From a virus: a DNA stretch of 64,000 nucleotides. The translations under genes and the position numbers were made by a program. The stretch spans positions 64,001-128,000 of IMG/VR virus record IMGVR_UViG_3300043410_001471. One strand, 5' to 3'. The notes beneath the pieces were generated by a model, which was not told where the DNA came from, did not search any database, and saw nothing but the letters and a program-made list of their open reading frames with translations. This document shows, piece after piece, positions 18,412 through 46,829 of the stretch. Position 1 is the first letter of the stretch; each line of letters opens with the position of its first letter.

Positions 18412-21400
18412 ATGGCCGTAATACAAAAAACTTTATTTGCTGAAAATTTAGATAGATATCAAACTCTTATAACTGATACAAATCCAAATAGTGAATATTT
18501 TAAAATAACAGAACTATCCGATACTCTAACGGGTGGTAAAAATGCATTTTTGATTCAAGGTTCAGAGTATTTAGTGCCTGATACTTTAATTAAAATTGAA
18601 ATTAAAGATGCAAATGGAGATATTATATATCACGAGCCAGGAGAAGGTATCGTTTCATCTTCAGTAAATGGTGAACCGATTGTAACCGAATATTATGAAG
18701 GTACATCAAAAGTAGTCGCGGTTCACATATACCCCGATACGGCATATGGACCTGCTACAATTACGATATTAGGAGAATTATCATCTTACAATAGTAACGG
18801 ATTAAATACACCAATACCAATTGATTGGGAAGGTAAGTATAATGTTAAATGGCAGAAGCAGGTAAATGTAAATCCATCTTTAGCCAATACTACAAAAATT
18901 CGTTTTTATCAAAGACCGGTTGCAAGTATTTCTGAAACACTTTCTCCAATTTATACAATTGTAGATGGAGTTAAAGTTGAGTCAAATGTAGTATCATCTT
19001 TTGCAAATGTTAGAATATCAAAAATGGAAACATTTGCAGGTGATGTTAAAAGAATAAAGGTATTTAGAACATCGTTGGGCGATATTTCCGATTCTGATTT
19101 GATACAAGATATATTGGTAGAATCTAAAGAATTGCTCACATCATATGAATTAAGTGGTAGCGTTGTTGGTAATAGTGGATTATTTACATCTGAAACTTTA
19201 AGTAAACTATGGAACGCTGATGGAGTTACTACTGAATTGACATCTAGTCGAATAGATAATGGGGTTAAATTAAATGGTAGTGGGTATTTTAGATATACTT
19301 CATCTTTGAATTTATCGGATGTAAGTGTTTATGAATTAGGTATTGATGCATTTTATTCATCTTCAACTGCAAGTAATTTAGGAATTTATATAAGTGGTTC
19401 TAATAATGGTGAATATTTAATTGGTACATTGAATGGTATAGTTCCTACGAAAAACTTAAAAGACCAAACAATTCAATTCACTTTACCTTTGACAGAGCCA
19501 ACCGCATCTTTATATTTTTCACAATCTCAAAGTGAATGGCATGTTGGTAATATTAGTTTAAAATTAACGCAAGATACAGCATTCTCTCCATCGGAAATTG
19601 AATTTGTAACATCAATGCCAACTGTAATTGGTAATGAGACTTATGAATTTAATTTTGAATTTTATGATGTAAATAATAACTATGTGCCGGTTGCAGTTAC
19701 TCAATCAGCATTATTTACGGGCGGTAATAATAATTTGGGTGGAACGATAACATTAATCAGTTCATCGGCATCTTCTTCGTTATCTCAATTATATGCAGTA
19801 TCATCTTCTATTAGTGGAACGATGACTGTATATAGTTCATCGGCAAGTAGTTCGGTTGGCATAGTCAGTAGTTCAATTTATACATTAAGTGGTTCGGTTA
19901 GTTCATCGATAGCAGCTGTAAGTTCATCTGTAAGCCAGAGTGTGTATAATGGATTATTAACCGCATTTACAAAAGTACAAGATTTAGCAGATGGAAATTA
20001 TAGTGGTTCATTTATAAGTGGTAATATAATGTATTCACCGGTTATAGGTGGGCAGACTGGATACTTTAGTACCTTATTTAAAGTGGGGGCTAGTAATTCA
20101 ATTTATTTAGATGCAAGAGCTAGTACTAAAAAAATATATATTGGAGGTGTAAATGATACTGGTTCATATAATAGTGGAAGTACTCCGGTTTATATGGATA
20201 GTGATGGTAAATTTTCATTAAAAGACCAATTAACTTGGGATGGTAGTTCTTTATCCGTAAATGGTACAATAAATGTTACAGGTGGAAATGCGGCAACTCA
20301 AACTTATGCAAATGGAGTTGGATTAAACGCAGCATTATCAGCATCGGCAGCATATACAAATGCAAAAGCAGTTGCGGATAGTATTGCAAACGGAAGTTAT
20401 AATGGTGGTACTTTAATAAGTAATGGTAGTATAATTTCACCAGTTATTGCTGGAGCTGATGGGTATATTTCAAATGTATTGAAAGTTGGCAGTGGTGGTA
20501 TCACATTGGATGGTACTAATAAAAAAATATATGTTGGCGTTGGTAGTTACAATAATGCAAATACTCCATTTTATTTTGCATCCGGCTCTTCGAATATATT
20601 CTCATTGGGAGATAAATTAACATTCGATGGTACTACATTGGGAATAAATGGTGGTATAACTGCAACATCATTAACATTAGCAAGTGGTGTTACTATTGCA
20701 AATACAAAAATTACGGGATTAGGTACATTATCTACATTGAATAGTGTAAACGCAACTTATATAGATGATAATTCAATTACGACTGGTAAAGTTGTTGCTA
20801 ATACATTGGATGCATCCCATATTTCTGCATTAAACTTTACAGGTAAAAATGCGGTATTTACAACTGGAACTATTGGTGGATGGACTATAAATCCCGATAA
20901 ATTATCTTCACCACCGGATGGTAGTGGATATAGTAGATTAACATTCTCACCATCGCCATTGATAGCAGTAAATGATACATCAGGTAATCCAAAACTAACC
21001 ATTAGAGCTGGTGATTTAACAAACTTAGGCGCTGGTACTAGTGTATCATTGAATTTTGGTAGCTATAATGTTAATTCTTGGTCTGATGCAATATATCAGG
21101 GTTCAACTACAATTAATGGTACTGCTTTTACATTTTCACCAAGCGCAGCTGGAACATATAGTGGTACGATATCAATGAGTGCCGTAGGCGGTATTGCAAC
21201 TACACCCGGCGGATGGAGTGGATATTTGTATGTGGGGGTAAGATGGGAAGTGGCATCTGATGCTGGATTTTCAAATATAATTGGCAATGGTACGATTGGT
21301 AGTGGTGGTATTAGTAGTGCAGGTACTGTTTCAATTTCAGCAGCAACGCAATCGATATCAATTTCAATACCATCGGCTGGAACATATTATGCGAGATTAT

Positions 21401-21960
21401 GTTGGACTAGAACACTTTATAGTAATACAACATCTACTACACAATTTTATCAAAAAAGTAGTAGTGTTTCCAATGTTTCATTGGGTTCATCAGTTGAAGC
21501 AACTGAATTAACTGATAAAGGTTTCCAAGTAGTAAACGCAACTGATACATATTTAAGAATTGATAGAAGTTCATTTTCCGGAGCATATGTTAAAGTTGGT
21601 GGCTCAATATCAGCAACGGGTAATATAACCGCATATGCATCATCGGATAAAAGATTAAAGGAAAACATTATTCCAATCGAAAATGCTTTAGATAAAATAG
21701 ATAAAATAGATGGAGTTGAATTTGATTGGACTGATGCTTATATGGAGAAAGAAGTTGGTGATGATAAAGATGCACAAAGTTTAATTAAAAAGCACGATAT
21801 TGGAGTTATTGCACAACAAATAGAAGAAGTTTTGCCAGAAGTTGTTATGAAAAGAGAAGATGGGTATTTGGCAGTTAGATATGAAAAAATAATTCCTTTA
21901 TTAATAGAATCTATAAAAGAATTGAAGAAAGAAATTATTGAATTAAAAAATAATAAATAA
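18412..21960 (+). CDS. Tail fibre with C-terminal S74 intramolecular chaperone
   Basis: This 1182-residue protein ends in a peptidase-S74 (endosialidase-type) chaperone domain at about 1077-1182, which begins SSDKRLKENI and continues with IGVIAQQIEEVLPE and VRYEKIIPLLIE. In known members this domain helps a trimeric fibre fold and then cuts itself off near the SD-x-x-LK motif. Residues 448-512 are a Ser-rich shaft (repeated SSSxSSS with Ile/Val between). N-terminal 160 residues form a baseplate-attachment-like region and the middle holds repetitive beta segments (GKIYVG-like and GLGTLSTLN). It is probably a receptor-binding or long fibre. Its stop overlaps the next start by one base (TAATG). 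Confidence 0.88.
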   Translation: MAVIQKTLFAENLDRYQTLITDTNPNSEYFKITELSDTLTGGKNAFLIQGSEYLVPDTLIKIEIKDANGDIIYHEPGEGIVSSSVNGEPIVTEYYEGTSKVVAVHIYPDTAYGPATITILGELSSYNSNGLNTPIPIDWEGKYNVKWQKQVNVNPSLANTTKIRFYQRPVASISETLSPIYTIVDGVKVESNVVSSFANVRISKMETFAGDVKRIKVFRTSLGDISDSDLIQDILVESKELLTSYELSGSVVGNSGLFTSETLSKLWNADGVTTELTSSRIDNGVKLNGSGYFRYTSSLNLSDVSVYELGIDAFYSSSTASNLGIYISGSNNGEYLIGTLNGIVPTKNLKDQTIQFTLPLTEPTASLYFSQSQSEWHVGNISLKLTQDTAFSPSEIEFVTSMPTVIGNETYEFNFEFYDVNNNYVPVAVTQSALFTGGNNNLGGTITLISSSASSSLSQLYAVSSSISGTMTVYSSSASSSVGIVSSSIYTLSGSVSSSIAAVSSSVSQSVYNGLLTAFTKVQDLADGNYSGSFISGNIMYSPVIGGQTGYFSTLFKVGASNSIYLDARASTKKIYIGGVNDTGSYNSGSTPVYMDSDGKFSLKDQLTWDGSSLSVNGTINVTGGNAATQTYANGVGLNAALSASAAYTNAKAVADSIANGSYNGGTLISNGSIISPVIAGADGYISNVLKVGSGGITLDGTNKKIYVGVGSYNNANTPFYFASGSSNIFSLGDKLTFDGTTLGINGGITATSLTLASGVTIANTKITGLGTLSTLNSVNATYIDDNSITTGKVVANTLDASHISALNFTGKNAVFTTGTIGGWTINPDKLSSPPDGSGYSRLTFSPSPLIAVNDTSGNPKLTIRAGDLTNLGAGTSVSLNFGSYNVNSWSDAIYQGSTTINGTAFTFSPSAAGTYSGTISMSAVGGIATTPGGWSGYLYVGVRWEVASDAGFSNIIGNGTIGSGGISSAGTVSISAATQSISISIPSAGTYYARLCWTRTLYSNTTSTTQFYQKSSSVSNVSLGSSVEATELTDKGFQVVNATDTYLRIDRSSFSGAYVKVGGSISATGNITAYASSDKRLKENIIPIENALDKIDKIDGVEFDWTDAYMEKEVGDDKDAQSLIKKHDIGVIAQQIEEVLPEVVMKREDGYLAVRYEKIIPLLIESIKELKKEIIELKNNK

Positions 21961-24492: not shown

Positions 24493-25634
24493 AAATACAT
24501 TGCGATTATACAGAATTAAAAGGAATATTTTATGATTGTGATATATCGAATTTTGAAATAATAGAGAATTCATATTTCAATACTCAAAAAAATGCGATTG
24601 TTTTATTGGATAGAACTCAATTAGAATATTTTTACAATTCATATAAAAATAATCAAAATGAATTTGATAGAATATGCCATATGTGGAAAAAAAATAATAA
24701 TTTAATTGTTTTTTGGAGATGTCACTTTGAACCAATGATATATAATTTGGAAAAGAAATTTATTTTAAATAAATGGGATTTTAAACATATATCAATAACC
24801 GATTCAGAAATATTTAAAAATGTAGAAGGATTTTATTTTGACCATTTTTCAAATTTAATTCATATGGTGGGTTGTGATAAAAATGGATTATATGAATGCT
24901 TAGAAGATACTATTGAACATACATTTGAAAAAAAATATGATTATTCTTTTTCATTTTTCACACCTAGAATTCAAAAAATTCATTTATTAAATAAAATAAT
25001 TGATAATAAATTGACTGAAAGATGTTTGATAAGAATGAACAAACCATTTTATGATAATGAACAAATATTAACTAATCCAGAATATATTGGATTGGTAAAA
25101 CCATCTATTAAAAAATTTTACAAAGAAAATATAATATTCAGAAATTTTGATGAATATAGACCGTATGTTAAGTTTAATAACGCTGAAATGAAAATGCATG
25201 AAACACATAGTAGTGCTTATATAAAAATAAAGGAATATGATACATCGTATATAGATTTAAACGCAGAAACACATTGTATATTCAATATTCCACCTGTAAA
25301 TACCGAAAAAGTCTATAAATCATTATTTACCGAAAAACCATTTATATGTATTGGTTCTCAAAAGGTTTACGAAGAGTTGGAAAAAATTGGAATAAATACA
25401 TATGTAGATGTATTCGATTTGCATATATTGAGAGATACGAATGAACCAATAGAACATATAGATGCTATAATAGAATTTCAGAAAAAAAACATTAACAATA
25501 TTCCCAAACTATTCAATGAGTTGGAGAGTATTAGAAAACAAAATAGAAAATTATTTTTAGAACATTATAAAAAGATAACGAGAGAGGTTTACGATTTCGT
25601 AATGGGTTATTATGCAGAGCTTATTAAATCTTAA
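24462..25634 (+). CDS. Unknown enzyme-like protein, member A of a three-paralogue family
   Basis: Not a family I can name. Its C-terminal third carries KSLFTEKPFICIGSQKVY followed by LEKIGINTY. The same 'EK-x-pfI-iG/S-...-L---G--T' block occurs in the genes at 38791 and 47987, so the three are paralogues. The block resembles the C-terminal donor-binding part of fucosyltransferase-like enzymes (TEK followed by PV--G), but this is weak. The start overlaps the preceding gene by 31 bases; no better in-frame ATG is nearby. It is Asn/Ile/Lys-rich like its neighbours. Glycosyltransferase-like function is a hypothesis. Confidence 0.55.
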   Translation: MDSANIGNTIKIHCDYTELKGIFYDCDISNFEIIENSYFNTQKNAIVLLDRTQLEYFYNSYKNNQNEFDRICHMWKKNNNLIVFWRCHFEPMIYNLEKKFILNKWDFKHISITDSEIFKNVEGFYFDHFSNLIHMVGCDKNGLYECLEDTIEHTFEKKYDYSFSFFTPRIQKIHLLNKIIDNKLTERCLIRMNKPFYDNEQILTNPEYIGLVKPSIKKFYKENIIFRNFDEYRPYVKFNNAEMKMHETHSSAYIKIKEYDTSYIDLNAETHCIFNIPPVNTEKVYKSLFTEKPFICIGSQKVYEELEKIGINTYVDVFDLHILRDTNEPIEHIDAIIEFQKKNINNIPKLFNELESIRKQNRKLFLEHYKKITREVYDFVMGYYAELIKS

Positions 25635-26376
25635 CATTATAAAAGATTATTTAACTAATAATCATACCATTGATGAAAATGGTAATTTAATTTATACACC
25701 TATAAATTATCGTTGGACTCATGGTGCAACTGATTTGCATTTGGGTGATGGATTAATGATATATTCACTCATTCAATTTAACAGAGCTAAAACATGCGTT
25801 TGTATTGGAACAGGTGGAGGATTTATTCCACGCCTTATGACTCAATCAAGAGTTGATTTGTGGCATCAAAAAATATTTGAAGGAAATCCATCGAATGAAT
25901 GGGGTGATATTGGAACTACCATAATAGTTGATGCTTCAAACGGAGTTGGCGGATTTACCGATTGGACTGAAGAAGATTCATTTTTAAGAAAACATTTTTC
26001 ACCACAAATTATATTGGAAACATCGGAAAAAGCATTTTATGATTATTTTGTAAGACAAGATATTAAAATAGATTACTTACATATTGATGGAGACCACTCA
26101 TACGAAGGTGTTAAAAAAGATTTTGAATTATATTCAACTATAATGTCTGAAAATGGAATTATTACAATTCACGATACAGACCAACTATATCACGATACAT
26201 TCGTTGTAACTGAAAATTCTAAAAAAGATTTTGCAACATTCGATGGACCTGCAAAATTTGTAAAAGAATTGCAAAATAATACCGAATGGGACTTGGTAAA
26301 TTTGAAAAATTTTCGTATATTTGAATCAAAAAGACCAACAACAACAGGATTGACACTACTAACAAGAAAAAGTTAA
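25612..26376 (+). CDS. Class I SAM methyltransferase (Methyltransf_24-like)
   Basis: Residues 62-74 (CVCIGTGGGFIP) are the glycine-rich SAM motif I, and IDYLHIDGDHSYEGVKKDF at about 150-170 is the signature of the Methyltransf_24 family often found in polysaccharide clusters. It is followed by IITIHDTD, also typical. Such enzymes methylate sugars or small phenolic hydroxyls. The start overlaps the previous gene by 23 bases. Within this cluster an O-methylation of a glycan sugar is plausible; the substrate is not visible. Confidence 0.75.
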   Translation: MQSLLNLNIIKDYLTNNHTIDENGNLIYTPINYRWTHGATDLHLGDGLMIYSLIQFNRAKTCVCIGTGGGFIPRLMTQSRVDLWHQKIFEGNPSNEWGDIGTTIIVDASNGVGGFTDWTEEDSFLRKHFSPQIILETSEKAFYDYFVRQDIKIDYLHIDGDHSYEGVKKDFELYSTIMSENGIITIHDTDQLYHDTFVVTENSKKDFATFDGPAKFVKELQNNTEWDLVNLKNFRIFESKRPTTTGLTLLTRKS

Positions 26377-26387
26377 AAATAAAGTTA

Positions 26388-27230
26388 ATGAAAAAAGTAA
26401 GATTAGTAACAGTGACAGGAAGTAGAACAAACACTCTCTGGCATATGTTAAATCACTACAAACACATAGTTGATGAAATTTATGTAGTAGTTTATGAATG
26501 GGAAGGTATGTCTACCTTAAAAGAAGTTGGAGATATACTTAAAAACTTTCCAACTGCAAAAATAGTTAGAGTTGAGAGTAAAGAAAAATTTAATTGGGAA
26601 TATGTTACTCAATTATATAATGAAACTAAATTAATGCATCCCGATGATTGGTGGGTAGTTTCAGATGATGATGAATTTCATATATACTCTATGCCATTAC
26701 CATTTATGATAGAAGATTGTGAAGAAAATGGATGGGATATAGTAAGAGGTGGGTTTTTGGATAGAATAGGTACATTTGGAAGTTTTCCTGAAATACAACC
26801 ATATAAAAATATATTTGAGCAATTCCCATTAGCAGGATTCTTTAGATATCCATTGAGTGGTGCTTGTCCTAATAAAGTATGTGTTATGAAAGGATATGTA
26901 GAAGTTACTTCAGGGCAACATTATGCAAAAATTAATGGAGAAGTTTTATGGGGAACGCAATCTGAAAATAAATTAATAGCACCAATAGATAAATATTATA
27001 CACAGGTTCATCATTTTAAATGGGATAGTACTTGTGTAGAAAGAATTAAAGCAGTAGCAGATATTAGAAAGGATTATGCATATTCTTCAGAATACTTAAA
27101 AATGTATCAAGCTATTAGAAGAAATAATTTTGAAATTGATATTGCTAATCCAGAATTCAATATGGAATTTATTGAGCAAGGTGAGTATTCAAAATGGTCG
27201 GAATTAATGCAAAAAATAATTACAATATAA
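26388..27230 (+). CDS. GT-A-like glycosyltransferase
   Basis: Residues 4-40 form a Rossmann-like start (RLVTVTGSRTN then YVVVYEW). The DWWVVSDDDEFH segment at 87-98 has the acidic metal-binding motif expected of GT-A enzymes, resembling GT2/GT92-like proteins with an SDDDEF box. A later VHHFKWDST supports a second catalytic His. Length (280) is ordinary. It is followed by a host-like promoter, so it ends the first part of the enzyme block. Donor and acceptor unknown. Confidence 0.65.
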   Translation: MKKVRLVTVTGSRTNTLWHMLNHYKHIVDEIYVVVYEWEGMSTLKEVGDILKNFPTAKIVRVESKEKFNWEYVTQLYNETKLMHPDDWWVVSDDDEFHIYSMPLPFMIEDCEENGWDIVRGGFLDRIGTFGSFPEIQPYKNIFEQFPLAGFFRYPLSGACPNKVCVMKGYVEVTSGQHYAKINGEVLWGTQSENKLIAPIDKYYTQVHHFKWDSTCVERIKAVADIRKDYAYSSEYLKMYQAIRRNNFEIDIANPEFNMEFIEQGEYSKWSELMQKIITI

Positions 27231-27278: not shown

Positions 27279-27491
27279 ATGGCTACATCAAAAAAACAAG
27301 AAGAAACGCAAGAAACATCCGAATTATTACTATTAGAAGCTAAGAAAGTTAAAGCATTGGAAAAAATTGCAAACTCTTTAGATGCACTTACTGTTTGGTT
27401 TGAAGAAATCGATAAAGAAGAGTGGGGAGAGAGATTGCAATGGTATTTAGCAGAATTTCATAAGAAGATAGTGGAGGAGGATGCAAACTAA
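27279..27491 (+). CDS. Small acidic helical protein, unknown
   Basis: The 70-residue product is acidic and helical, with a Leu-rich segment (SELLLLEAKKVKALEKIANSL) that could form a short coiled coil and an aromatic patch (WFEEIDKEEW). No known motif. It is the first gene behind a host-like promoter and overlaps the start of the galactosyltransferase-like gene by 11 bases. A leader or partner protein of the following enzyme is possible, but nothing in the sequence proves it. Confidence 0.5.
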   Translation: MATSKKQEETQETSELLLLEAKKVKALEKIANSLDALTVWFEEIDKEEWGERLQWYLAEFHKKIVEEDAN

Positions 27492-28893
27492 TCACAAATT
27501 AGGAATCATTGTACCTTATAGAAATCGATACGAACATTTAGAAACATTTAAACAATCAATTGTTAATTATTTCAATAATGGTCGTATCGATTATGAATTG
27601 ATAATAATTGAGCAAGATGATGCTAAATTATTCAATCGTGGTATGCTACTTAATATTGGATTCACATACGCAAAAAAATTAAAATGCGATTATGTAGTAT
27701 TTCACGATGTAGATATGATTCCTTTGAGTGTTGATTACTCATATTCGGATATTCCACTACATTTAGCAACCGATTTTCAATATTCTACTGATGAGAAAAA
27801 ACGTGAAGTATTTGATACATACTTTGGTGGTGTAACAATATTCCCAGTTAAAATGTTTGAATCAATTGATGGTTATTCAAACAAATATTGGGGATGGGGA
27901 TATGAAGATGATGATTTATTATTAAGATGTAAACATCACAATATACCACTTGATAGTAAAAATTTTAAAAATATAGGAAATCGAAAATATTTAAAATTAA
28001 ATGGAATTGATTCATACATTAAATTAAAAAATGTTATAGATTTTAATTATCATTTTACATTATCACTAACTTTTTGTCCAGATGATTTAAAATTAGACCA
28101 TAATAGAGAATCGGATGAGTTCACCATATTCAGTATACCTGGATATGATTTTGCTATTTCATATACATCTTTCCATCGTTATAATTTTTGTGCATTTGAT
28201 TACAAATTAAATTCACACTTTATAAATTCTGAAATAAAGCCAAACTATTTAACAAATATTACAATAACATACGATTGTGATGAGAAAGTTATAAGTGTTT
28301 ATCAGGATGGAATTCTTATAGGAAAAACCGATACTATTAGAAAGTTTTTAGTAGATTATAAAACAGCTAAAACAATTTATATAGGTGTTGGAAACCCTGA
28401 TAGAGAAGTTATACCCAATTGGTTTAAAGGATATTTCAAATCTTTTGCGTATTATGATGAAGTATTAGATGGTGATACTTTGTATAAATTGGGAACTGAA
28501 TTGGATACCATATTACCTAAATCAGAATCGTTATTAATGTACTATGATGCATCTAAAATATATGATTATAAATTAAAAGATTTATCAGGAAATAGAAATT
28601 ATGCTGAAATAGTTGCTTGTGAGATGGTAGATGTAAATGATTCGGAAGAAATTACTCATTTGATTCCATATAGAAGAAAAAGTAAATTCAAATCATTGAA
28701 GCATGATGAGAATGGATTTTTAGGAAACAAATGGAAAAATGAATGCACACGATGGAATCAATTGAGATTTATAAATGAAATTATTGATAATGAAGAATTA
28801 TTAAAAAATGATGGATTATCTACATTAGAATTCGTAGAGCATGGTGTAAAAAGAATTGATAAAAATATTAGAATAATAAATGTTGGTATATAA
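27481..28893 (+). CDS. GT7 galactosyltransferase interrupted by a LamG-like domain (copy 1)
   Basis: Residues 8-160 match beta-1,4-galactosyltransferases (GT7): VPYRNR (11-16), LFNRGMLLNIG (50-60), the HDVDM metal site (75-79), FGGV (115-118) and the hallmark WGWGYEDDD (137-145). The family's C-terminal lobe does not follow. Instead residues about 168-385 read as a LamG/concanavalin-like sandwich (YLKLNGIDSYIKL, FSIPGYDFAISY, VYQDGILIG, FKSFAYYDEVL). The GT7 ending resumes at about 391 with PYRRKSKFK and DGLSTLEF. So a carbohydrate-binding-type fold is inserted in the catalytic fold. The next gene has the same plan. A GGAGGAGG lies directly against the ATG, too close for a normal Shine-Dalgarno. 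Confidence 0.85.
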   Translation: MQTNHKLGIIVPYRNRYEHLETFKQSIVNYFNNGRIDYELIIIEQDDAKLFNRGMLLNIGFTYAKKLKCDYVVFHDVDMIPLSVDYSYSDIPLHLATDFQYSTDEKKREVFDTYFGGVTIFPVKMFESIDGYSNKYWGWGYEDDDLLLRCKHHNIPLDSKNFKNIGNRKYLKLNGIDSYIKLKNVIDFNYHFTLSLTFCPDDLKLDHNRESDEFTIFSIPGYDFAISYTSFHRYNFCAFDYKLNSHFINSEIKPNYLTNITITYDCDEKVISVYQDGILIGKTDTIRKFLVDYKTAKTIYIGVGNPDREVIPNWFKGYFKSFAYYDEVLDGDTLYKLGTELDTILPKSESLLMYYDASKIYDYKLKDLSGNRNYAEIVACEMVDVNDSEEITHLIPYRRKSKFKSLKHDENGFLGNKWKNECTRWNQLRFINEIIDNEELLKNDGLSTLEFVEHGVKRIDKNIRIINVGI

Positions 28894-30299
28894 TGAAATT
28901 AGGAGTTTGCGTACCATATAGAAATAGAGAAGAACATATGAAAGTGTTCGTTCCTCATGTTTCAAAGTTTTTAGAAGAAAGAGGTATTGAACATACTATT
29001 TATCTTGCACATCAATGCGATGATAAACTTTTCAATAGAGGATTAATGAAGAACATTGCTGCAAAGCATGCATTTGATGATGGATGCGATTATATAGTTT
29101 GGCATGATATTGATATGGTGCCCGAAGATGATAGTTGTGATTATTCATTTCCAGAAGTAAACCCACAACATATCGCTGTTCGTATCTCACAATCGGATTA
29201 TCAGTTAAAGTATGAGGAATACTTTGGTGGAGCAGTAATATTTTCAAAAGAACAAGTTGAAAGAACCAATGGGTACTCAAATGATTATTGGGATTGGGGA
29301 ATGGAAGATGATGATTTATTTTGGAGATGTGTAATGGAGGGATATGCTGAAAAAACTCAATTAGAATATAATAAAGAACAAATTGTAGCATATTTCAATG
29401 GTGTGGATTCTAAAATAGAATTTAGACCTTCAAGAGAACAAAAAAATTGTTTATCTAATTCACATACTGTTTCCATATTAGTTAAAGCTGAACAGCAAAT
29501 AGAGAAAGTTCCCATTTGGTTGATTGGTGATAACAATAGACAATTTATGGAATATCCAATTTTCAGAAAACCTGGATACGATTGGGGATTATCTTTTAAT
29601 AATAGTAGAGCATATACAATGCAACTTTGGGATAGAATGAAAGGACATTTGTATCAATGGATTAAACGATATGAGAATCAATGGAGTTGGATTACTATGG
29701 CAGTTGATGCTGAAAATAAAAAAATACATTTTTATTTGAATGGAAAAGAATCTGATGCACGATTAGGAACGGGAACTCAATCTCCATTGTTATACAATGA
29801 ACCATTAAAAAGATATGGTATGGAGCCATTTTATGTTGGGTATTCCAAATCCCCCGTTGAATCATATTTTAAAGGAGCGATTGCATCGATAGTAATGTGG
29901 GATAGATGTTTAAACCCTAAAGAAATTAAAAATATACACACTAAATTTCCAGAAGATGGATTAGTATTGGATTTATTTACAATGGCATTGGATTTTGGGG
30001 AATCTACAAATGTTGAAACTAAAAAGGAATTAATAGAAATTCCACATACGATTTTACCATATAGAAGAGATGGTAAGTTTAAATGTTTACCACATCAGAC
30101 AGAAGGATTAATCAAAGAAGGTGGAATTGATAAATGGGCCAAAGGAGAAACAACTGCACAAAATGAAAGAAGATATGTTTTACAAATGCAGCAAGGAAAT
30201 ATTGATTATAAATCCGATGGTATTAATTCTATGAAATACGAATTATTATCAATTGATACTATATATAATAAACATAAACTTATAAATGTTAAAGCATAG
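28893..30299 (+). CDS. GT7 galactosyltransferase interrupted by a LamG-like domain (copy 2)
   Basis: Tandem paralogue of the previous gene, joined by a TAATG overlap. GT7 motifs: VPYRNR (7-12), LFNRGLMKNI (47-56), HDIDM (71-75), FGGA (111-114) and WDWGMEDDD (133-141). A LamG-like insert spans about 163-375 (YFNGVDSKIEF, MEYPIFRKPGYDWGLSF, FYLNGKESD, AIASIVMWDRCL). The GT7 tail resumes near 386 with LPYRRDGKFKCLPH and ends DGINSMKYE. The first W of WGWG is retained and the middle G is D here. The two copies are quite diverged, so the duplication is not recent. A sugar-adding enzyme with its own lectin-like module is inferred. Confidence 0.85.
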   Translation: MKLGVCVPYRNREEHMKVFVPHVSKFLEERGIEHTIYLAHQCDDKLFNRGLMKNIAAKHAFDDGCDYIVWHDIDMVPEDDSCDYSFPEVNPQHIAVRISQSDYQLKYEEYFGGAVIFSKEQVERTNGYSNDYWDWGMEDDDLFWRCVMEGYAEKTQLEYNKEQIVAYFNGVDSKIEFRPSREQKNCLSNSHTVSILVKAEQQIEKVPIWLIGDNNRQFMEYPIFRKPGYDWGLSFNNSRAYTMQLWDRMKGHLYQWIKRYENQWSWITMAVDAENKKIHFYLNGKESDARLGTGTQSPLLYNEPLKRYGMEPFYVGYSKSPVESYFKGAIASIVMWDRCLNPKEIKNIHTKFPEDGLVLDLFTMALDFGESTNVETKKELIEIPHTILPYRRDGKFKCLPHQTEGLIKEGGIDKWAKGETTAQNERRYVLQMQQGNIDYKSDGINSMKYELLSIDTIYNKHKLINVKA

Positions 30300-30301
30300 T
30301 T

Positions 30302-31702
30302 ATGGCATATAAAAAACCACTTTACGAAGAAGTAAAGAATACATTGGATAATGTTGGTAAAGGAATGTGTTTGGCAAAATGGACACAGGTTACAACTCAC
30401 TTACATACGGGTCACAACCATTCTTGTCACCACCCTAATACACATAAAGTTTCCGAACAAGAAATTAAACGAAACCCATCGGCACTTCATAATACTTTGT
30501 TTAAAAAGCAGAGAAGAAAAGAAATGATGAATGGAGCTAGACCTACCGAATGTGATTATTGTTGGGGAGTTGAGGATAATTCGGATTTATATTCGGATAG
30601 AGTTTTTAAATCATCCGAAGATTGGAGTTGGCCATTGGCAGACCAAATCATTAATTCAAATTGGAGAGATGACTTTAACCCACGTTATGTAGAAGTTGCA
30701 TTCTCAAATGCTTGTAATTTCGCATGTTCATATTGTTCACCAACCTTTTCAACAAAATGGATGGAAGAAATACAACAATATGGAGCATATAATACTACCG
30801 ATAGTTTCAATGATTTAAAACATTTGGCAGCTGAACAAAAAATGCCAATACCATTAAGAGAACATAATCCATATGTTGAAGCATTTTGGAAGTGGTGGCC
30901 TGATTTATATAGAGATTTGCATACATTCCGTATTACAGGTGGTGAACCATTGATGCATAAAGATACTTGGAAGGTATTGGATTATATTATAGATGAACCA
31001 AACCCAAATAAGAATTTAGATTTCTCTATTAACTCTAATTTAGGTGTACCTGATGAATTAATCACCAAATTGATTGAAAAATTAAAAAGAATTACGGAAG
31101 AAGATAAGGTAAAGGGATTTGTACTATTTACATCTTGTGATGGATGGGGTGAACAAGCCGAATATATTCGTAATGGTTTGGAATTTAATCGTTTTTGGAA
31201 CAATGTGAATAGAATTTTGAGAGAAGTTCCTAGAATTACTATAACATTTATGGTAACATATAATATGTTATCAGTATTTAGTTTTGATAAATTAATTAAA
31301 GGTGTTTATGATTTAAAAAGAGAATATGCCGGGGATGATAGATATTGGTTATCACCCGTATTATTGGATACATCGTATTTAAGACACCCAAGACATCAAA
31401 CTGTTCAAATACTTCCACATCAATTTAAGCAAAACATATTTGACCAAGCTCAATTAGCATTTTATTATGGAATTCCATACTATTCAAAGGGATATGTTGG
31501 GTATTCTGACTTGGAAATTCAAAAATTAAAGAGAACATATGATTGGGCAATATCACCAATAGATAATGGTGAATTATTCAAAGCAAGATATAACTTTTAT
31601 CAGTTCTTTAGTGAGCATGATAAGAGAAGGGGAACTGATTTTTGTAAAACATTCCCAGAATTAGAAGAATTTTATCACTTTACAAAAGAAATTAAGTTAT
31701 AA
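30302..31702 (+). CDS. Radical SAM enzyme (twitch-type, phage family)
   Basis: The CNFACSYC segment provides C138, C142 and C145, the CxxxCxxC ligands of the SAM-binding [4Fe-4S] cluster, and RITGGEP is the SAM-contact GGE motif. The N-terminus (CLAKWTQVTTHLHTG with C23 and C42) and CDYCWG (C84, C87) match a radical SAM family I know from marine phages, described as twitch-domain proteins. Substrate unknown in that family. It lies between the LamG-GT7 pair and a free LamG protein. Reaction by a 5'-deoxyadenosyl radical is certain if the fold is right; the product is not deducible. Confidence 0.85.
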   Translation: MAYKKPLYEEVKNTLDNVGKGMCLAKWTQVTTHLHTGHNHSCHHPNTHKVSEQEIKRNPSALHNTLFKKQRRKEMMNGARPTECDYCWGVEDNSDLYSDRVFKSSEDWSWPLADQIINSNWRDDFNPRYVEVAFSNACNFACSYCSPTFSTKWMEEIQQYGAYNTTDSFNDLKHLAAEQKMPIPLREHNPYVEAFWKWWPDLYRDLHTFRITGGEPLMHKDTWKVLDYIIDEPNPNKNLDFSINSNLGVPDELITKLIEKLKRITEEDKVKGFVLFTSCDGWGEQAEYIRNGLEFNRFWNNVNRILREVPRITITFMVTYNMLSVFSFDKLIKGVYDLKREYAGDDRYWLSPVLLDTSYLRHPRHQTVQILPHQFKQNIFDQAQLAFYYGIPYYSKGYVGYSDLEIQKLKRTYDWAISPIDNGELFKARYNFYQFFSEHDKRRGTDFCKTFPELEEFYHFTKEIKL

Positions 31703-32436
31703 TGTATAAAGTATCACACAAAGCACCATTAATTTTAGCAGATTTGCCATGGTGGCCTCATAATGCATATGGTATCATAGATACATCGGCATTTTATGTA
31801 ATGAATGAATCAAGTTGGACAATAAGTGGAACTTGGAAACGAAGTGAAGATGATTCCAAAATAGATGATATGGCTGGAATCTTTATGAGAAGAGGACTTC
31901 ATACGGGCATTGTTTATAGAAAGCCTGATATGTTGATGCTTAATTTTTGGTATGTTGAAAATGAAGAAGAAAAATATGCAGATAAGATTCTTTTTTATAA
32001 AGATGAAGCATTTTGGAACGAACCACACTTATTTACATTAAATTGGGATGGTGAAACATTTACTTATGAATTTTGGATAGATGATGAGTTGGTATATTCA
32101 GAAACATTGGCTGGAAAATTAAGAGATTATATAAACGCACCTTATTTCATTGGGGCTGCCGATACGAAAGGTGATTTTAGTTGGGCGCAAGAATGTTATA
32201 CGGATTTTTTTATAGTTTCTAATAAAAAATTAGATGGTTCTACTATAAATGATTTTAGAAAAAACATAGATGAATATGTTGAAGAAAATAAACATGGATT
32301 CAGATGTTTAACAAAAAATGAATTGGGATTATTATGTTGTTTTGATTTTAAAACCGAAACTGATTATAAGTTTTGGGATATGACTGGAAATAATAATCAT
32401 TTAATGAAACATTGTAAGGATTTAGAAAAATTATAA
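31702..32436 (+). CDS. Stand-alone LamG/concanavalin-like protein
   Basis: The 244-residue sequence alternates beta segments typical of LamG sandwiches: WTISGTWKRSE, FTLNWDGETFTYEFWIDDELVY and LGLLCCFDF with TGNNNHL near the end. The last block (FDF, DMTGNNNH) mirrors the ends of the LamG inserts in the two GT7 genes upstream (YYDASKIYDY, DLSGNRN). It may be a separated relative of those inserts. No catalytic motif and no signal peptide. A carbohydrate-binding partner for the enzyme cluster is the likely role (inference). Confidence 0.6.
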   Translation: MYKVSHKAPLILADLPWWPHNAYGIIDTSAFYVMNESSWTISGTWKRSEDDSKIDDMAGIFMRRGLHTGIVYRKPDMLMLNFWYVENEEEKYADKILFYKDEAFWNEPHLFTLNWDGETFTYEFWIDDELVYSETLAGKLRDYINAPYFIGAADTKGDFSWAQECYTDFFIVSNKKLDGSTINDFRKNIDEYVEENKHGFRCLTKNELGLLCCFDFKTETDYKFWDMTGNNNHLMKHCKDLEKL

Positions 32437-32437
32437 T

Positions 32438-33403
32438 ATGAAAATATTAGTTACAGGAGGAGCAGGTTATTTAGGCTCTGTTATAGTTGATAAAATGTTA
32501 AACGCCGGTTATGAAGTTGTTGTATTGGATAAGTTATTATTTAATCAAACTTCATTATTACAATATACATCCAATCCAAAGTTCAAATTTATTTATGGAG
32601 ATGTTCGTAATGTAACAGAATTGGAAAGATTATGTAATGAATCGGATGTGATTATTCCATTAGCTGCAATTGTAGGATTTCCTGCATGTGCGGCAGACCC
32701 AAAGTTAGCAAAAGAAATTAACTTTGACCAAATTGTCAATATAGTAAGATTTGGTAAAGGTAAAAAGATTTTATATCCTAATACAAATAGTGGGTATGGA
32801 ATTGGTGAGGGACAAACGGAATGTACCGAAGATTCACCATTAACCCCTATTTCGGTATATGGGCAAACCAAATGTGATGCTGAAAACTTTTTAAGAACGA
32901 TGACTGATGCTATTACATTCAGATTGGCAACTGTATTTGGAGTATCACCGAGAATGAGAACGGATTTATTAGTAAACGATTTTACTTATAAAGCAATTAC
33001 GGATAAATACATAGTAGTATTTGAAAAGAATTTTAAAAGAAACTTTATTCATGTCGAAGATGTGGCATCCGCATTTCTTTTTATGTTACAAAATTACGAT
33101 ACATACAAAGGTGAAGTATTCAATGTAGGATTGAGTTCGGCAAACCTTTCAAAGCAAGAATTATTAGAAAAGATTCAATCGCATGTAAAGGATTTTGCGG
33201 TATCATACAACGACTTTTATGAGGACCCTGATAAAAGAGATTACATTGTATCAAACGCTAAAATAGAAGCGACTGGATGGATGCCAGAGTGGGATTTGGA
33301 TAGAGGTATTAAACAACTTATGATGGGATACCAAATGGTAGTTCCAAAAATGGGTTCTGAATTTAGAAACGGATTTCCTTTAGGTTACGCACAAAACTTT
33401 TAA
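32438..33403 (+). CDS. NAD-dependent sugar epimerase/dehydratase (extended SDR), canonical
   Basis: The N-terminal GGAGYLG (7-13) is the dinucleotide-binding loop and Y141-x-x-x-K145 (YGQTK) the catalytic pair of extended short-chain dehydrogenases acting on nucleotide sugars. A downstream RNFIHVEDV segment is the usual substrate-side motif. Length 321 is normal. It is followed after one base by an RmlC-like epimerase, the pairing expected in deoxysugar pathways. It is the only one of the three SDR proteins in this block with an intact YxxxK. Confidence 0.88.
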   Translation: MKILVTGGAGYLGSVIVDKMLNAGYEVVVLDKLLFNQTSLLQYTSNPKFKFIYGDVRNVTELERLCNESDVIIPLAAIVGFPACAADPKLAKEINFDQIVNIVRFGKGKKILYPNTNSGYGIGEGQTECTEDSPLTPISVYGQTKCDAENFLRTMTDAITFRLATVFGVSPRMRTDLLVNDFTYKAITDKYIVVFEKNFKRNFIHVEDVASAFLFMLQNYDTYKGEVFNVGLSSANLSKQELLEKIQSHVKDFAVSYNDFYEDPDKRDYIVSNAKIEATGWMPEWDLDRGIKQLMMGYQMVVPKMGSEFRNGFPLGYAQNF

Positions 33404-33404
33404 T

Positions 33405-33950
33405 ATGAGTAATAAGTGGGATGAATTTATAGAAACACCATCTAAGAAATTTGGATATCAAGTTCCATCATTTCAACCATCAGTATTCAGAGAATATAGA
33501 GGTGAAATATTTACAACTTTCCATTCGGAAGAACATCCGGTAATGAGACACATTCATTATGATAAAAGTGAGATATCAATTCACGGAAGATTTTCTCGTT
33601 CATACAAAGGAGTATTGAGAGGATTACATTGGGATAAAAAAACATGGAAGTTAGTTCAAGCAGTAGTAGGTGATATCTACTTAGTTGTATTGGATATGAG
33701 AGAAACTTCACCAACTTATGGAGATTGGGAATCGTACATCATATCCGAAAGATTAAGAAATCAAGTACTGATTCCACCGGGATTTGCAAATGGACATTAT
33801 GCATTAACTGATTGTATGTTTCACTATAACCTATTTTACAAAGATGGTTATGTAGATGCAGATGAGCAAGGTGTAGTTAAATGGAATGACCCGGAGTTTC
33901 AAATGGAATGGCCAACCGATAAACCTATATTACAAAAAAGAGATAGATAA
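33405..33950 (+). CDS. dTDP-4-keto-6-deoxysugar 3,5-epimerase-like cupin (RmlC family)
   Basis: RmlC enzymes epimerise C3 and/or C5 of dTDP-4-keto-6-deoxysugars. Here GVLRGLHW gives the catalytic His (H75), followed by WKLVQAVVGDIYLVVLDMR, SPTYGDW, the cupin-edge VLIPPGFANGH and, at the end, WNDPEFQMEWP and PILQKRDR. These are the family blocks in the right order and spacing. Length 181 is standard. Direct coupling to an SDR epimerase upstream supports a deoxysugar branch. I cannot tell whether it acts at C3, C5 or both. Confidence 0.88.
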   Translation: MSNKWDEFIETPSKKFGYQVPSFQPSVFREYRGEIFTTFHSEEHPVMRHIHYDKSEISIHGRFSRSYKGVLRGLHWDKKTWKLVQAVVGDIYLVVLDMRETSPTYGDWESYIISERLRNQVLIPPGFANGHYALTDCMFHYNLFYKDGYVDADEQGVVKWNDPEFQMEWPTDKPILQKRDR

Positions 33951-34783
33951 TGCCTACACTTTGGACATTTGGTGATTCGTTTACAGCGGGGCATGGTATG
34001 AATGGTGAGATACCAGAATATGAACATGCTGACAAGAATTACAAATGGACAAAATTATTATCAAATGAGTTACAATATGACTTAAAAGATTTCAGCCAAA
34101 ACGGAATTCCTAATGAAAGAATATTATTTAAACTTTTAGAAAATTTAGAAAATTTTGAGAAAGATGATATTGTAATTATACAAAGTAGTACAATAACGAG
34201 ATATGAATTTCCATTTTATGAAAAAAAGAAAAAATTAAAAGAACCCACCGATGGTTATATGTATTTTTTAAACGAAATGGATTCAATAACATATGATATG
34301 GTAAAAGATGATTATGAAACTTATGATGGGAACATAATAAGTGAAATGGAATATAAAGCCAGTAAAGATTTCATGCAATATATCGTACCATCCACATATT
34401 ATTATAGAAGAAATATAGTAAATCTTTCAAATATAGCAAAATATTTATACAATAAAAAATTAATAAAAAATGTTATATTTTGGAATTTGGAATCAATTAG
34501 AACCGATTCCATACCAAATAAACAGCCATTAGTATTTAATATATTTGATGATTATTCCGATATGTATGATTATTCTTTGTACGATATGAGTTATACTGGA
34601 ATCGATACATTTGATTATGGCTGGTTAAATATATTTCGTAAACTTAAATTGACAATATGGGATGATAGTCAGAAATCTATATATGATTTTCATTTATCAA
34701 AAAAAGGACATATATGGTTTACAAATGTTATTTTAGATAAATTAAATATTTCTAAACGAATTAAACCATTGAGTATATTATGA
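33950..34783 (+). CDS. SGNH/GDSL-type protein (1 of 5)
   Basis: WTFGDSFTAG at residues 5-14 is block I with the nucleophile S10. DFHLSKKGH at 246-254 is block V with the expected D246 and H248. SGNH proteins are esterases, or acetyl transferases on glycans when placed in surface-polysaccharide clusters. Length 277. It starts with a TAATG overlap to the epimerase gene and ends with an ATGA overlap to another SGNH gene. Acyl addition or removal on the predicted glycan is inferred from context. Confidence 0.72.
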   Translation: MPTLWTFGDSFTAGHGMNGEIPEYEHADKNYKWTKLLSNELQYDLKDFSQNGIPNERILFKLLENLENFEKDDIVIIQSSTITRYEFPFYEKKKKLKEPTDGYMYFLNEMDSITYDMVKDDYETYDGNIISEMEYKASKDFMQYIVPSTYYYRRNIVNLSNIAKYLYNKKLIKNVIFWNLESIRTDSIPNKQPLVFNIFDDYSDMYDYSLYDMSYTGIDTFDYGWLNIFRKLKLTIWDDSQKSIYDFHLSKKGHIWFTNVILDKLNISKRIKPLSIL

Positions 34784-35535
34784 AATACGATTTAATAGTA
34801 GGATTCGGATGTAGTTTTACAGAAGGAGGTGGTTTGGATAATCCAAATGTTTATAAGTTTATCAATAATATTGAAGATAGCACTATTGGATTTTTACACC
34901 CCGATATAATACAATTTAAATATGATAATAATTTTATATCGTATTTATCTGAATTGTATAAATGTGATTATATAAATTTTGGAGAATCGATGTCATCAAA
35001 TGATTTAATATTTCAAAAAATATATGATTATTTTAAAGAAAAAATTATAAACAAACGAATTCTATGTATTGGACAAGTCACAATGTTTACAAGACAAAAT
35101 GTTTATTATGATTTTACTAAGGAAACTTTAAAATTAAATAGAGTAGAATTTAGTGACCCACCATTTAATAATGATGATAAATACAAACCACTATATCAGT
35201 ATTATGAAAATTACTTATCATTTATTTATAATGAAGATGTAGTAGTTTCTAATTTAGAAAAAAATATTGAATTATATGATAATTGGTTAAGATATAAAGG
35301 CGTAGATACATTGTGGTTATCATATGATGGTAATCCAAATCAATTCATAGAATCGGATAAATTTATTAAATTTGATGGTGATAATTTGGGAGCATGGGCT
35401 GAAAAAAATAAATTGAGAATTATGGATATACCCAATTGCCCGGTGCCAGACCCACATCTGAATTTAGAAGGTCATATGGAAGTTGCAAAATTAATTTATC
35501 AAAAAGTAAAAAATAGAAAAACAAAAGTTATATGA
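34780..35535 (+). CDS. SGNH-type protein (2 of 5)
   Basis: GFGCSFTEG (8-16) is a block I variant with Cys before the nucleophile S12. Near the C-terminus CPVPDPHLNLEGH has the block V Asp-x-His. Length 251. The G-C-S-F/Y form of block I is shared with the genes at 41095, 42108 and 46110, which sets these four apart from the GDS form next door. It lies between an SGNH gene and the TPP-enzyme subunit, with ATGA overlaps on both sides. Substrate unknown. Confidence 0.68.
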   Translation: MKYDLIVGFGCSFTEGGGLDNPNVYKFINNIEDSTIGFLHPDIIQFKYDNNFISYLSELYKCDYINFGESMSSNDLIFQKIYDYFKEKIINKRILCIGQVTMFTRQNVYYDFTKETLKLNRVEFSDPPFNNDDKYKPLYQYYENYLSFIYNEDVVVSNLEKNIELYDNWLRYKGVDTLWLSYDGNPNQFIESDKFIKFDGDNLGAWAEKNKLRIMDIPNCPVPDPHLNLEGHMEVAKLIYQKVKNRKTKVI

Positions 35536-36167
35536 TACGAAATTTAGAAAACTACAATAAGGTAGAAAATGTGCATGAATCCTTTACACCACAAGATTTA
35601 ATTGATTTTGAAAATCTAATAGTAAAACATTGGGAAGATGCAAAAATCAGAGGACCTATACATTTATCGAATGGAAATGAAGAACAATTAATTGAAATAT
35701 TTAAAAGAATTTCAAAAAATGATTGGGTATTTAGTACATGGCGTTCTCATTATCATGCATTATTAAAAGGGGTATGTCCTGTTTGGATTGAAGAAGAAAT
35801 TCTAAAAGGTAAATCTATTACATTATGTAATTTAGATGAAAAATTTTATTCATCTGCTATTGTGGGAGGTACTCTATCAATTGCATTAGGAGTTGCAATG
35901 GGAATTAAAGCAAAAGGTAGTGATGAAAAGGTTTGGTGTTTTATTGGAGATATGTCTTTTGAAAGTGGTATATTCTACGAAGTTCATAAATATGCAAGAA
36001 ATTTTGATTTACCATTATATTTTGTAGTAGAAGATAATGGTGTTTCTACATATACACCAACCGCAGTAACTTGGAATACTAAAAGAGATATCCCATCGGA
36101 TGTTATACATTATAAGTATGATTCAAAATTTCCACATTACGGAACTGGTAAATGGATAGCATTTTAA
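35532..36167 (+). CDS. TPP-binding subunit, E1-alpha-like half enzyme
   Basis: The sequence resembles the PP domain of E1-alpha subunits of 2-oxoacid dehydrogenases. WRSHYHALLKG (70-80) matches the conserved R-x-H-x-x-x-L-x-x-G, GGTLSIALGVAMG the helix before the site, and GDM (139-141) with N169 the thiamine-diphosphate/Mg motif. At 211 residues it is about two-thirds of a normal alpha subunit and stops soon after the motif. The matching pyrimidine-domain subunit is encoded 11 kb away at 46826. Together they would form a minimal TPP enzyme for C-C bond chemistry; the substrate may be a sugar (inference). Confidence 0.78.
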   Translation: MIRNLENYNKVENVHESFTPQDLIDFENLIVKHWEDAKIRGPIHLSNGNEEQLIEIFKRISKNDWVFSTWRSHYHALLKGVCPVWIEEEILKGKSITLCNLDEKFYSSAIVGGTLSIALGVAMGIKAKGSDEKVWCFIGDMSFESGIFYEVHKYARNFDLPLYFVVEDNGVSTYTPTAVTWNTKRDIPSDVIHYKYDSKFPHYGTGKWIAF

Positions 36168-40107: not shown

Positions 40108-41095
40108 CGGAAAAAAAGTTTTAGTTACTGGAGCAAATGGATTAGTAGGATTACCAGCAGTTAAGAAATGTTTAGAAGAGGGTGCTGAAAAAGTATATGC
40201 GGTAGACCTTAAATTTGGTGATAATCTTAAATTATTACAATCACAATATAGTGATAAAATAGTTTTAGTACAAAGTGATTTAACATATCTTTCCCATTGT
40301 GAAAATTTATTCACATTGGATAAAATTGATATTGTACTACACATTGCAGGAGTCAAAGGTTCACCGGCTCGTTCATCTACACAACCTGCGGATTATCTAT
40401 TCCCAATGTTGATGTTCAATACCAATATGATTAAAGCATCATTTGATGCGAAGGTTGATTGGTTTGTATATCTTTCATCGGTTGGAGTTTATAAACCAGC
40501 AGATGTAATGAACGAAGAAGATATTTGGTCACAAGAAGAAACTTGGGCATCAACTCCATCTCGTTTAGATTGGCATCCAGGTTGGACAAAAAGAATGGGA
40601 GAACTTACTTTGGATTCATTACGAGTTCAATATGGTTGGGATAATTGGACTGTAATTAGACCTTCTAACATATATGGAACAAACGATAATTTTGCGCAAG
40701 ATGCAACGGTAATCTCTTCTAACATTTGGAAGTTATTCAATGTAGAGGGGGATGATATGATATGTTGGGGCGATGGTTCATCCAAAAGAGATTTTGTATT
40801 TGGTGATGATGTGGCACAAGCATCAATTGATGTAGTTAAAAAAGAAGTTAGAGATATTATCAACTTTGGATGTGCAGAAGCAGTATCAATCAAAGATACA
40901 ATTGAAACTATTGTTGAATGTTATACTGAAATTACGGGTAAAACTAAAAACATAGTTTGGGATTCTACAAAAACAAACGGAGACCCTATTAGATGTTTAG
41001 GTTCTAAAAAACAAAAACAATATGGTATTTTACCACAAACTACATTAAAAGAAGGATTAACAAAATCAATTTTAGAATATAAAAGTAGATTATAA
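40097..41095 (+). CDS. SDR epimerase-like protein lacking the catalytic tyrosine
   Basis: TGANGLVG (11-18) is the NAD-binding loop, and WTVIRPSNIYG and RDFVFGDDVAQA are normal for extended SDRs acting on nucleotide sugars. The catalytic YxxxK is replaced by P161-G-W-T-K165: the lysine is there, followed by the usual G-E four residues later, but the position of the tyrosine holds proline. LHIAGVKGSP and a Trp-rich insert (IWSQEETWASTPSRLDWHPGW) are unusual. It may use another residue or have a non-redox role. Length 332. Confidence 0.82.
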   Translation: MEFNGKKVLVTGANGLVGLPAVKKCLEEGAEKVYAVDLKFGDNLKLLQSQYSDKIVLVQSDLTYLSHCENLFTLDKIDIVLHIAGVKGSPARSSTQPADYLFPMLMFNTNMIKASFDAKVDWFVYLSSVGVYKPADVMNEEDIWSQEETWASTPSRLDWHPGWTKRMGELTLDSLRVQYGWDNWTVIRPSNIYGTNDNFAQDATVISSNIWKLFNVEGDDMICWGDGSSKRDFVFGDDVAQASIDVVKKEVRDIINFGCAEAVSIKDTIETIVECYTEITGKTKNIVWDSTKTNGDPIRCLGSKKQKQYGILPQTTLKEGLTKSILEYKSRL

Positions 41096-46110: not shown

Positions 46111-46829
46111 TGGATAGTATATTATTTTCAGGTTGTTCTTACACATATGGAGAGGGATTGTGGAGAGAAACAGGTGATACACATCAAAATTCTGAAAATC
46201 AAAAATATCTTTTAGAAAATAGATGGACAACAAAAGTTTCAAATCATTTTAATCTCAATCAAATTTCAAAAGGGTACAATGGTGGAAGTAACATTGGTTC
46301 TATTAAATTTGTAAGAGAAGAATTTGATGCAACTACTTGGAATGGGAATGATATTAAATTGATATTATTTCAAACTACGCAATTCAATAGACACAAATTT
46401 AGTATAGATGAACAAATATCCGAATTAGAAAAATTTGTAAAAGAATTTGAAAATAAAAATATACCTGTAAGATTTATACATTGGCAATGGGTTGATATAA
46501 CGGATGAAGAGATGGAAATATTCTTAAATAGAAAGCATGATTTTTTAGGAAAATTAAATCCATCATTTTTTCCAGATAAAACAATTCCACCATATGATGG
46601 TAATAAATTAACTTCTAAAATAATAAGAGATAGAACAATCAGAATTTTAGATAAATTTAATTTTCACGAAATGGTGTATCATAACGATGCACATAAAAAA
46701 GGAACATTATCTAACAAATATACATTGGCTGGAAAATTAAGATGTGAAGATTTCCATATGAATCAAGAAGGGCATGATATTTTAACAAATGAAATAATTA
46801 ATTATATAGAAAAAAATAAGTTATTATGA
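46110..46829 (+). CDS. SGNH-type protein (5 of 5)
   Basis: FSGCSYTYGEG (6-16) is block I with S10 and CEDFHMNQEGH near the end is block V with Asp and His, both in the expected places for a 239-residue SGNH hydrolase. IKLILFQTTQFNRHKF resembles a block III. Coupled by TAATG upstream and ATGA downstream to the fusion gene and the TPP-enzyme beta half. Acyl-ester chemistry is expected; substrate unknown. Confidence 0.68.
   Translation: MDSILFSGCSYTYGEGLWRETGDTHQNSENQKYLLENRWTTKVSNHFNLNQISKGYNGGSNIGSIKFVREEFDATTWNGNDIKLILFQTTQFNRHKFSIDEQISELEKFVKEFENKNIPVRFIHWQWVDITDEEMEIFLNRKHDFLGKLNPSFFPDKTIPPYDGNKLTSKIIRDRTIRILDKFNFHEMVYHNDAHKKGTLSNKYTLAGKLRCEDFHMNQEGHDILTNEIINYIEKNKLL

Follow-up and report, generated by a model that had tools for sequence, protein, structure and literature searches.

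The stretch of DNA analysed here, the window, comprises 64,000 nucleotides (bases 64001-128000 of a 245,436-base IMG/VR virus record) and also encodes a T4-type portal protein and a terminase. The features considered, all on the + strand, are listed below with the evidence for each.

18412..21960, + strand: tail-fibre type protein with a Peptidase_S74 (endosialidase chaperone) C-terminus (Pfam, E 1.5e-16)
25612-26376, + strand: methyltransferase, a constant upstream neighbour (Pfam; synteny in most of 97 loci)
26388-27230, + strand: GT2-like protein, a constant upstream neighbour (Pfam; synteny in most of 97 loci)
27279..27491, + strand: S, a 70-residue protein; 11-base overlap with the start of A
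27481..28893, + strand: A, GT7 glycosyltransferase with LamG insert, 470 residues (Pfam, AlphaFold2, IMG/VR family of 176)
27481..27957, + strand: N-terminal GT7 part of A, residues 1-159, with the motifs DxD (D76, D78), Y114 and WGWGYEDDD (137-145) (conservation; PDB alignment with beta4GalT1)
27958..28656, + strand: inserted LamG domain of A, about residues 160-392 (alignments of insert-less GT7s, Laminin_G_3, fold match)
28657..28893, + strand: C-terminal GT7 part of A, residues 393-470, with PYRRxxKFKxLxH including the invariant H408, RWNQLRF and DGL (hhalign; second stretch on beta4GalT1)
28893..30299, + strand: B, GT7 glycosyltransferase with LamG insert, 468 residues (Pfam, AlphaFold2)
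28893..29354, + strand: N-terminal GT7 part of B, residues 1-154, with DxD (D72, D74), Y110 and WDWGMEDDD
29355..30044, + strand: inserted LamG domain of B, about residues 155-384 (Laminin_G_3, E 2.7e-10; conservation)
30045..30299, + strand: C-terminal GT7 part of B, residues 385-468, with invariant H401, N424 and G443 (hhalign)
30302..31702, + strand: radical SAM protein, a constant neighbour downstream of B (Pfam, phrog_14086)
31702..32436, + strand: free-standing LamG-like protein (hhalign of its family against the inserts)
32438..33950, + strand: NAD epimerase/dehydratase and dTDP-4-dehydrorhamnose 3,5-epimerase family protein, sugar-nucleotide genes (Pfam)

The reading frames of A and B are both intact and lie where an earlier note on this DNA placed them. 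S was missing from that note, as were the obligate pairing of A with B and the free-standing relative of the LamG insert. The ~250 bases before A might be taken for a non-coding gap but this was rejected as they contain the 70-residue reading frame of S. Three scans of IMG/VR gave hundreds of relatives, all from loci of uncultured viruses. Sorted by type, the loci collected comprised 176 A and 174 B, together with 30 of C, a third paralogue that lies upstream of A. Seven phage GT7s of ~245 residues each had no insert. With families of 176 and 174 members, chance was rejected as the origin of the architecture.

Fold and catalytic residues of A and B

Both Glyco_transf_7N and Glyco_transf_7C were found by Pfam in A (E 2e-21/5e-17) and in B (E 2e-19/2e-19), well above the cut-offs, and the GT7 identity given to the two proteins in the earlier note is thus borne out. 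Using the curated cut-offs, both domains were also matched by every member of the A family (89/89) and of the B family (75/75). End-to-end alignment of A with B gave 28% identity with the inserts in register, so that the insert does sit at the same point in both, as had been claimed. Some details required correction. The motif WGWGxEDDD was said to be shared but only A has WGWG, B having WDWG instead, and the LamG-like insert, which is present in both proteins, is about 230 residues long and not about 200.

Structure prediction, which had been proposed as a check, gave confident AlphaFold2 models for A (pLDDT 93.8, pTM 0.89, using an alignment of 89 natural relatives) and for B (pLDDT 92.2, pTM 0.85, using 75 natural relatives); in both models the middle was rich in beta structure and the joints were not disordered. 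Comparison using Foldseek showed the N-terminal ~150 residues of A and B to have the GT-A fold of beta4GalT1/T7 (E 1e-13 to 1e-11; for B, rmsd 1.3-2.4 A over ~150 columns). The middle region matched pentraxin/LamG folds with a TM-score, normalised by target length, of up to 0.72. Each of the BFVD matches listed was either GT7-like or LamG-like and none of them combined GT7 and LamG in one named protein.

As full-length hhalign mis-threaded the C-terminus across the 230-residue gap, the C-terminal segment was aligned alone with controls. Residues 385-470 of A (E 6e-11) and 375-468 of B (E 7.7e-10) aligned with the C-terminus of insert-less GT7s; the controls, pieces of the insert and reversed segments, gave E-values no better than 0.06. 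The PDB alignment of the A-family profile also contained a second aligned stretch on beta4GalT1. The profile alignment indicates that the last ~75-80 residues complete the GT7 domain, as anticipated in the earlier note, and the PYRRxxKFK segment identified there is the C-terminal GT7 strand, with R-x-G-x-F-x-x-L-x-H as its counterpart in cellular GT7s.

The insertion point lies between the helix following WGWG/WDWG-x-EDDD and the strand with the invariant metal-ligand-type His. In insert-less relatives the two GT7 halves are joined by a turn of 0-3 residues, e.g. '...RIPTGRRKGRFQPLDH...'. We take this point to be about a dozen residues before His347 of beta4GalT1, just ahead of the lid loop. 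The lid loop of beta4GalT1 forms the acceptor site. It is as good as certain that A and B each have a complete GT7 catalytic domain into which a LamG sandwich is inserted.

The DxD metal motif is present in 100% of the 89 A and 75 B sequences. The second motif is equally well kept, with W139, G140, E142 and D143 at 100% in A and W135, G136, E138, D139 and D141 at 100% in B. The His before the lid (H408 in A, H401 in B), in the place of the third metal ligand, is present in 100% of both families and the DGL segment is also found. Going by the alignment, this His presumably corresponds to His347 of bovine beta4GalT1, the third metal ligand. The donor-specificity Tyr, at the position of Y289 in bovine beta4GalT1, is kept in 99-100% of both families. 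Judged by these residues, A and B look like active enzymes, and the Tyr hints, by analogy, that UDP-Gal is their favoured donor. As this Tyr is kept in both A and B, the donor may be the same for both.

Overall, A and B share with the metazoan GT7s (beta4GalT1 and beta4GalT7; PDB 1FR8, 6FWT, 4IRQ, 4LW3) the GT-A fold over ~150 N-terminal residues, the DxD, the WGWGxEDDD-type motif, the donor Tyr, the His before the lid and the C-terminal DGL segment. They differ from them in having ~230 extra residues before the lid, which no solved GT7 has, in the absence of a long N-terminal stem and in being encoded as a pair together with a small protein. The bacterial GT7s (Azospirillum, Pelagibacteraceae, Parachlamydiaceae and others; L192-L218) have the same catalytic core and the C-terminal RxGxFxxLxH...DGL but, unlike phage A and B, have no LamG insert, no S and no paired gene, the catalytic part being about 220-310 residues.

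The inserted domain

Pfam found Laminin_G_3 in B and in most members of both families (82/89 for A and 71/75 for B), and no LamG match in the sequence of A itself. The inserts of A and B aligned with each other as profiles with E 7e-35. The profile match and the fold together identify the inserts as LamG / concanavalin A-like sandwiches. Their nearest solved sequence relatives were an S-layer LamG protein, the lectin domains of the sialidases NanB/NanC, CBM40s and pentraxins. The matches of CBM40 type are weak, those of the A insert having E 1e-6 to 1e-3 with only ~80-100 residues covered and those of the B insert to sialidases having E 0.04 or worse over a similar ~80-100 residues. The likeness to known LamG domains (NanB/NanC lectin, R. 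gnavus CBM40, CRP, PTX3) is one of fold and of part of the sequence. In A and many of its relatives, D-L-S-G-N is located at the C-terminal end of the LamG domain and an F-N-G strand at its start. This is the opposite of the order seen in the LamG domains of the tail proteins of these phages and suggests that the register is circularly permuted.

The insert evolves faster than the GT7 core, according to a comparison of conservation, and none of the full-length A, B and C relatives collected lacks it. In the B insert, 27 positions are conserved at ≥95% (that is, in at least 95% of 73 sequences, the C-type paralogue L130 being left out of the count); polar or aromatic residues occupy 17 of these and hydrophobic ones 4. 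Conserved residues are H191, T192, Q201, Q202, K205, E220, R225, S234, N236, N237, S238, R239, Y254, K258, W264, T268 and N283, and a putative binding site in the B insert is plausible. The A insert has 9 near-invariant positions as opposed to the 27 of the B insert. Since the A insert is far less conserved, the idea of one specific ligand common to both inserts is unsupported.

Gene unit, neighbours and distribution

B starts within 700 bases after A in 170/176 cases. Most of the exceptions were at contig ends or involved a fusion. In 90% of 84 distinct loci there is an overlap of 1 or 4 bases between the stop codon of A and the start codon of B, compared with overlap in 0-67% for other neighbouring pairs in the same clusters. 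In the window the junction is TAATG, with one base common to the two codons. S has the conserved core LExRKVKALEKIANSLDALTxWFEEIDKxEWSxRIQYYLxEWH, and a homologue of it was found upstream of A in 93/95 distinct loci (81 by the strict motif and 12 by eye). S matched no Pfam or PHROG family. It is under purifying selection, with dN/dS of about 0.14 and a mismatch of 0.34/0.23/0.49 at the three codon positions. A search from S alone gave 80 places, and a GT7 of type A followed in 79/79 of those that could be tested; many of the contigs had already come up in the earlier scans, which means that the counts are not independent of each other, though the search from S was not selected for A. S-A-B is a fixed unit in uncultured T4-like phages. 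From this we infer that S is a dedicated partner of A/B, recalling that gene pairing can reflect co-transfer instead of a complex.

The usual gene order is [tail-fibre genes] - GT-like - methyltransferase - GT2-like - (C) - S - A - B - radical SAM - free LamG - epimerase - RmlC-like. The radical SAM protein fell just under the cut-off for Pfam Radical_SAM and matched phrog_14086 with E 5e-21; its family is present in 92/97 distinct loci at a median of 2.9 kb after the start of A. The free-standing LamG-like protein alone had no Pfam match. Using hhalign, its family (solo6) aligned with the A insert with E 1.4e-12 and with the B insert with E 1.1e-6, negative controls being no better than 0.03, and by this measure the protein is distantly related to the inserted domain. 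The cluster adjoins the tail-fibre genes, the Peptidase_S74 protein marking the start of the host-recognition region. A similar arrangement is found in pelagimyophages, where the host-recognition cluster has glycosyltransferases and radical SAM cassettes by the tail-fibre genes (PMC7029224). Its authors linked these transferases to altering the host O-chain and reported GT8 as the main glycosyltransferase family (PMC7029224). The two systems thus resemble each other in having transferases and radical SAM cassettes beside tail-fibre genes in T4-like aquatic phages, but differ in that no galactosyltransferase, lectin or LamG is mentioned for the pelagimyophages (PMC7029224).

The statement in the earlier note that the insert is lacking in GT7s of animals and bacteria held in the samples studied. 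The 15 distinct GT7 sequences from the PDB have 251-288 residues, which leaves no room for it, and it was absent from 27/29 bacterial loci. Of the remaining two, L219 is a fragment of 121 residues and was not judged, and L191 has an insert. L191 has the phage gene order and comes from a phage-like contig of 23 kb that was placed in a Pelagibacterales MAG by binning. Searching 349 Pseudomonadota and 346 Bacteroidota genomes with the B profile gave GT7 by itself or LamG by itself and never both together, except in the MAG containing L191. An insert common to cellular GT7s was rejected for these samples, the sole exception being L191 on its phage-ordered contig. Among the isolate phages of INPHARED, nothing was found by tblastn using A, B or an insert-less phage GT7. 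The distribution of the architecture within the collections searched is well supported. Being common in aquatic virus metagenomes and absent from INPHARED, it marks a glycan pathway of phages that has yet to be explored.

In a tree of GT7 cores, a single branch separated all of the insert-bearing sequences from the rest (91/70; 92% of bootstrap trees); the tree is unrooted and excludes a long-branch Saprospiraceae sequence, with which the separation is weak. Going by this tree, the sequences suggest a single insertion event, after which duplication gave rise to A, B and C. A GT7 with LamG was not described in the open-licence literature searched, although such absence is no proof. The enzymes are true GT7 members, and it is the domain architecture and the gene unit for which no earlier description was found.

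Possible roles of the inserts and of S

The features above can be brought together in a tentative proposal, to which we give slightly less than even odds. S, A and B would form one enzyme complex, in which A and B would transfer sugar in consecutive steps, most likely galactose from UDP-Gal given that the Tyr matching Y289 of bovine beta4GalT1 is kept. The target would be a glycan or glycoprotein produced through the adjacent genes for sugar nucleotides and transferases, and the acceptor would be either the tail fibre of the phage itself or the surface of the host. Each LamG insert would hold the acceptor, either the glycan or its carrier protein, beside the active site, and S would be a dedicated small subunit assembling or regulating the A/B pair. 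Recognition of the acceptor glycan by the inserts, as put forward in the earlier note, is something we too infer, from the site just before the lid, the kinship with sialidase modules and pentraxins and the polar and aromatic residues of the B insert, all of which are circumstantial. Counting against it, LamG domains often bind proteins and not sugars.

It is quite possible that the inserts are docking or assembly domains, joining A, B, S, the free LamG protein or the tail fibre without binding any glycan. In favour of this are the tight coupling of S, A and B, the nearby gene for a free-standing protein related to the insert, the occurrence of LamG-type domains in structural proteins that this genome also encodes and the difference in conserved residues between the A and B inserts. 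The nearest solved relatives are, however, carbohydrate-binding sialidase modules and pentraxins, even if the similarity is weak and covers part of the fold. Acceptor binding and protein docking both fit the observations, with acceptor binding slightly ahead. A neutral or structural ornament, lodged in a tolerant loop, hard to remove and leaving ordinary GT7 chemistry, appears unlikely. The faster evolution of the insert than of the core and its position at what is a turn in the insert-less relatives speak for such an ornament, but its retention in every full-length relative and the excess of polar and aromatic over hydrophobic residues near-invariant in the B insert do not look like a constraint from folding only.

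The pairing of A with B can be read in another way, as a two-enzyme polymerase adding alternating sugars to a polysaccharide of repeating units, the growing chain being gripped by the LamG domains for processivity. Animal chondroitin synthases pair GT7-type with other domains, 3/89 members of the A family weakly match the CHGN family, and the two diverged GT7 paralogues are fixed side by side with translation likely to be coupled. Nevertheless, this is unlikely as no genes for polymer export were identified in the cluster, and the UDP-Gal-linked Tyr in both A and B perhaps indicates the same donor.

Returning to an S-A-B complex that holds its acceptor, a stronger version, which we regard as doubtful, would make S-A-B an obligate three-subunit glycosyltransferase found in a large group of uncultured phages and nowhere else, coating the tail fibres or the host with a phage-made glycan. 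The LamG domains would be lectins holding the acceptor before the lid and S would govern A/B, making it in principle the phage counterpart of alpha-lactalbumin, which controls beta4GalT1. A three-gene unit as fixed as this one makes partner and function directly testable.

A domain placed inside the catalytic domain of a glycosyltransferase, ahead of the mobile lid, would provide a natural example of a built-in acceptor-recognition module in an enzyme that is well understood, and a site in GT7 that tolerates a domain of 230 residues is of interest for enzyme design. A sugar-binding module within a transferase is known from the polypeptide GalNAc-transferases, which are GT27 enzymes with a C-terminal ricin-type lectin. 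In those enzymes the lectin is attached at the end, whereas the phage LamG interrupts the catalytic domain, and the two families are unrelated.

Genes around the tandem GT7 galactosyltransferases

The 70-aa protein gene S (window 27279-27491), which the earlier note had passed over, is short and conserved and overlaps the start of GT7-A. It is now counted as part of the S-A-B finding.

The GT7-LamG family has a third member, the paralogue C (~490 aa), which lies about 1.5-2 kb upstream of A in relative loci that include L113, L117, L118, L138, L144, L148, L154 and L181, amongst others. Given that the EDDD motif is changed in several of these proteins (ExLDL, ADLDL), C may be inactive or of different specificity.

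The radical SAM protein usually encoded downstream of B was joined in frame to B at one relative locus (L018:4175-6916, on a contig shared with L096), the fused B being without about 25 C-terminal residues. This fusion is either natural or an assembly error, and it hints that B and the radical SAM protein act together.

LamG domains inside and outside the GT7 enzymes

The insert of A (window 27958-28656) has the order FNG...DLSGN whereas a tail-protein LamG domain (L038:1730-2494) has DLTGN...FDG. This reversed order makes the insert look like a circular permutation of the LamG domains that these phages carry in their tail proteins. A LamG-like domain below the Pfam cut-off was also seen at residues 996-1127 of a 1659-aa protein (window 5228-10207), probably a baseplate or tail protein. 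Elsewhere in the virus record, near base 151,000, a 575-aa protein (L232:259-1986) has a Hint/intein-looking segment and then a LamG domain.

Further genes of the sugar cluster

Pfam identified an E1 dehydrogenase-type TPP protein at window 35532-36167, and a 179-aa ORF at 46826-47365 resembles its matching partner half. The two lie about 10 kb apart, both inside the sugar cluster, for which such a pair is unusual cargo. Five proteins (window 33950-35535, 41095-43193 and 46110-46829) resemble SGNH/GDSL hydrolases when judged by eye, one with a weak Pfam match; these are possibly deacylases or acyltransferases acting on the glycan.
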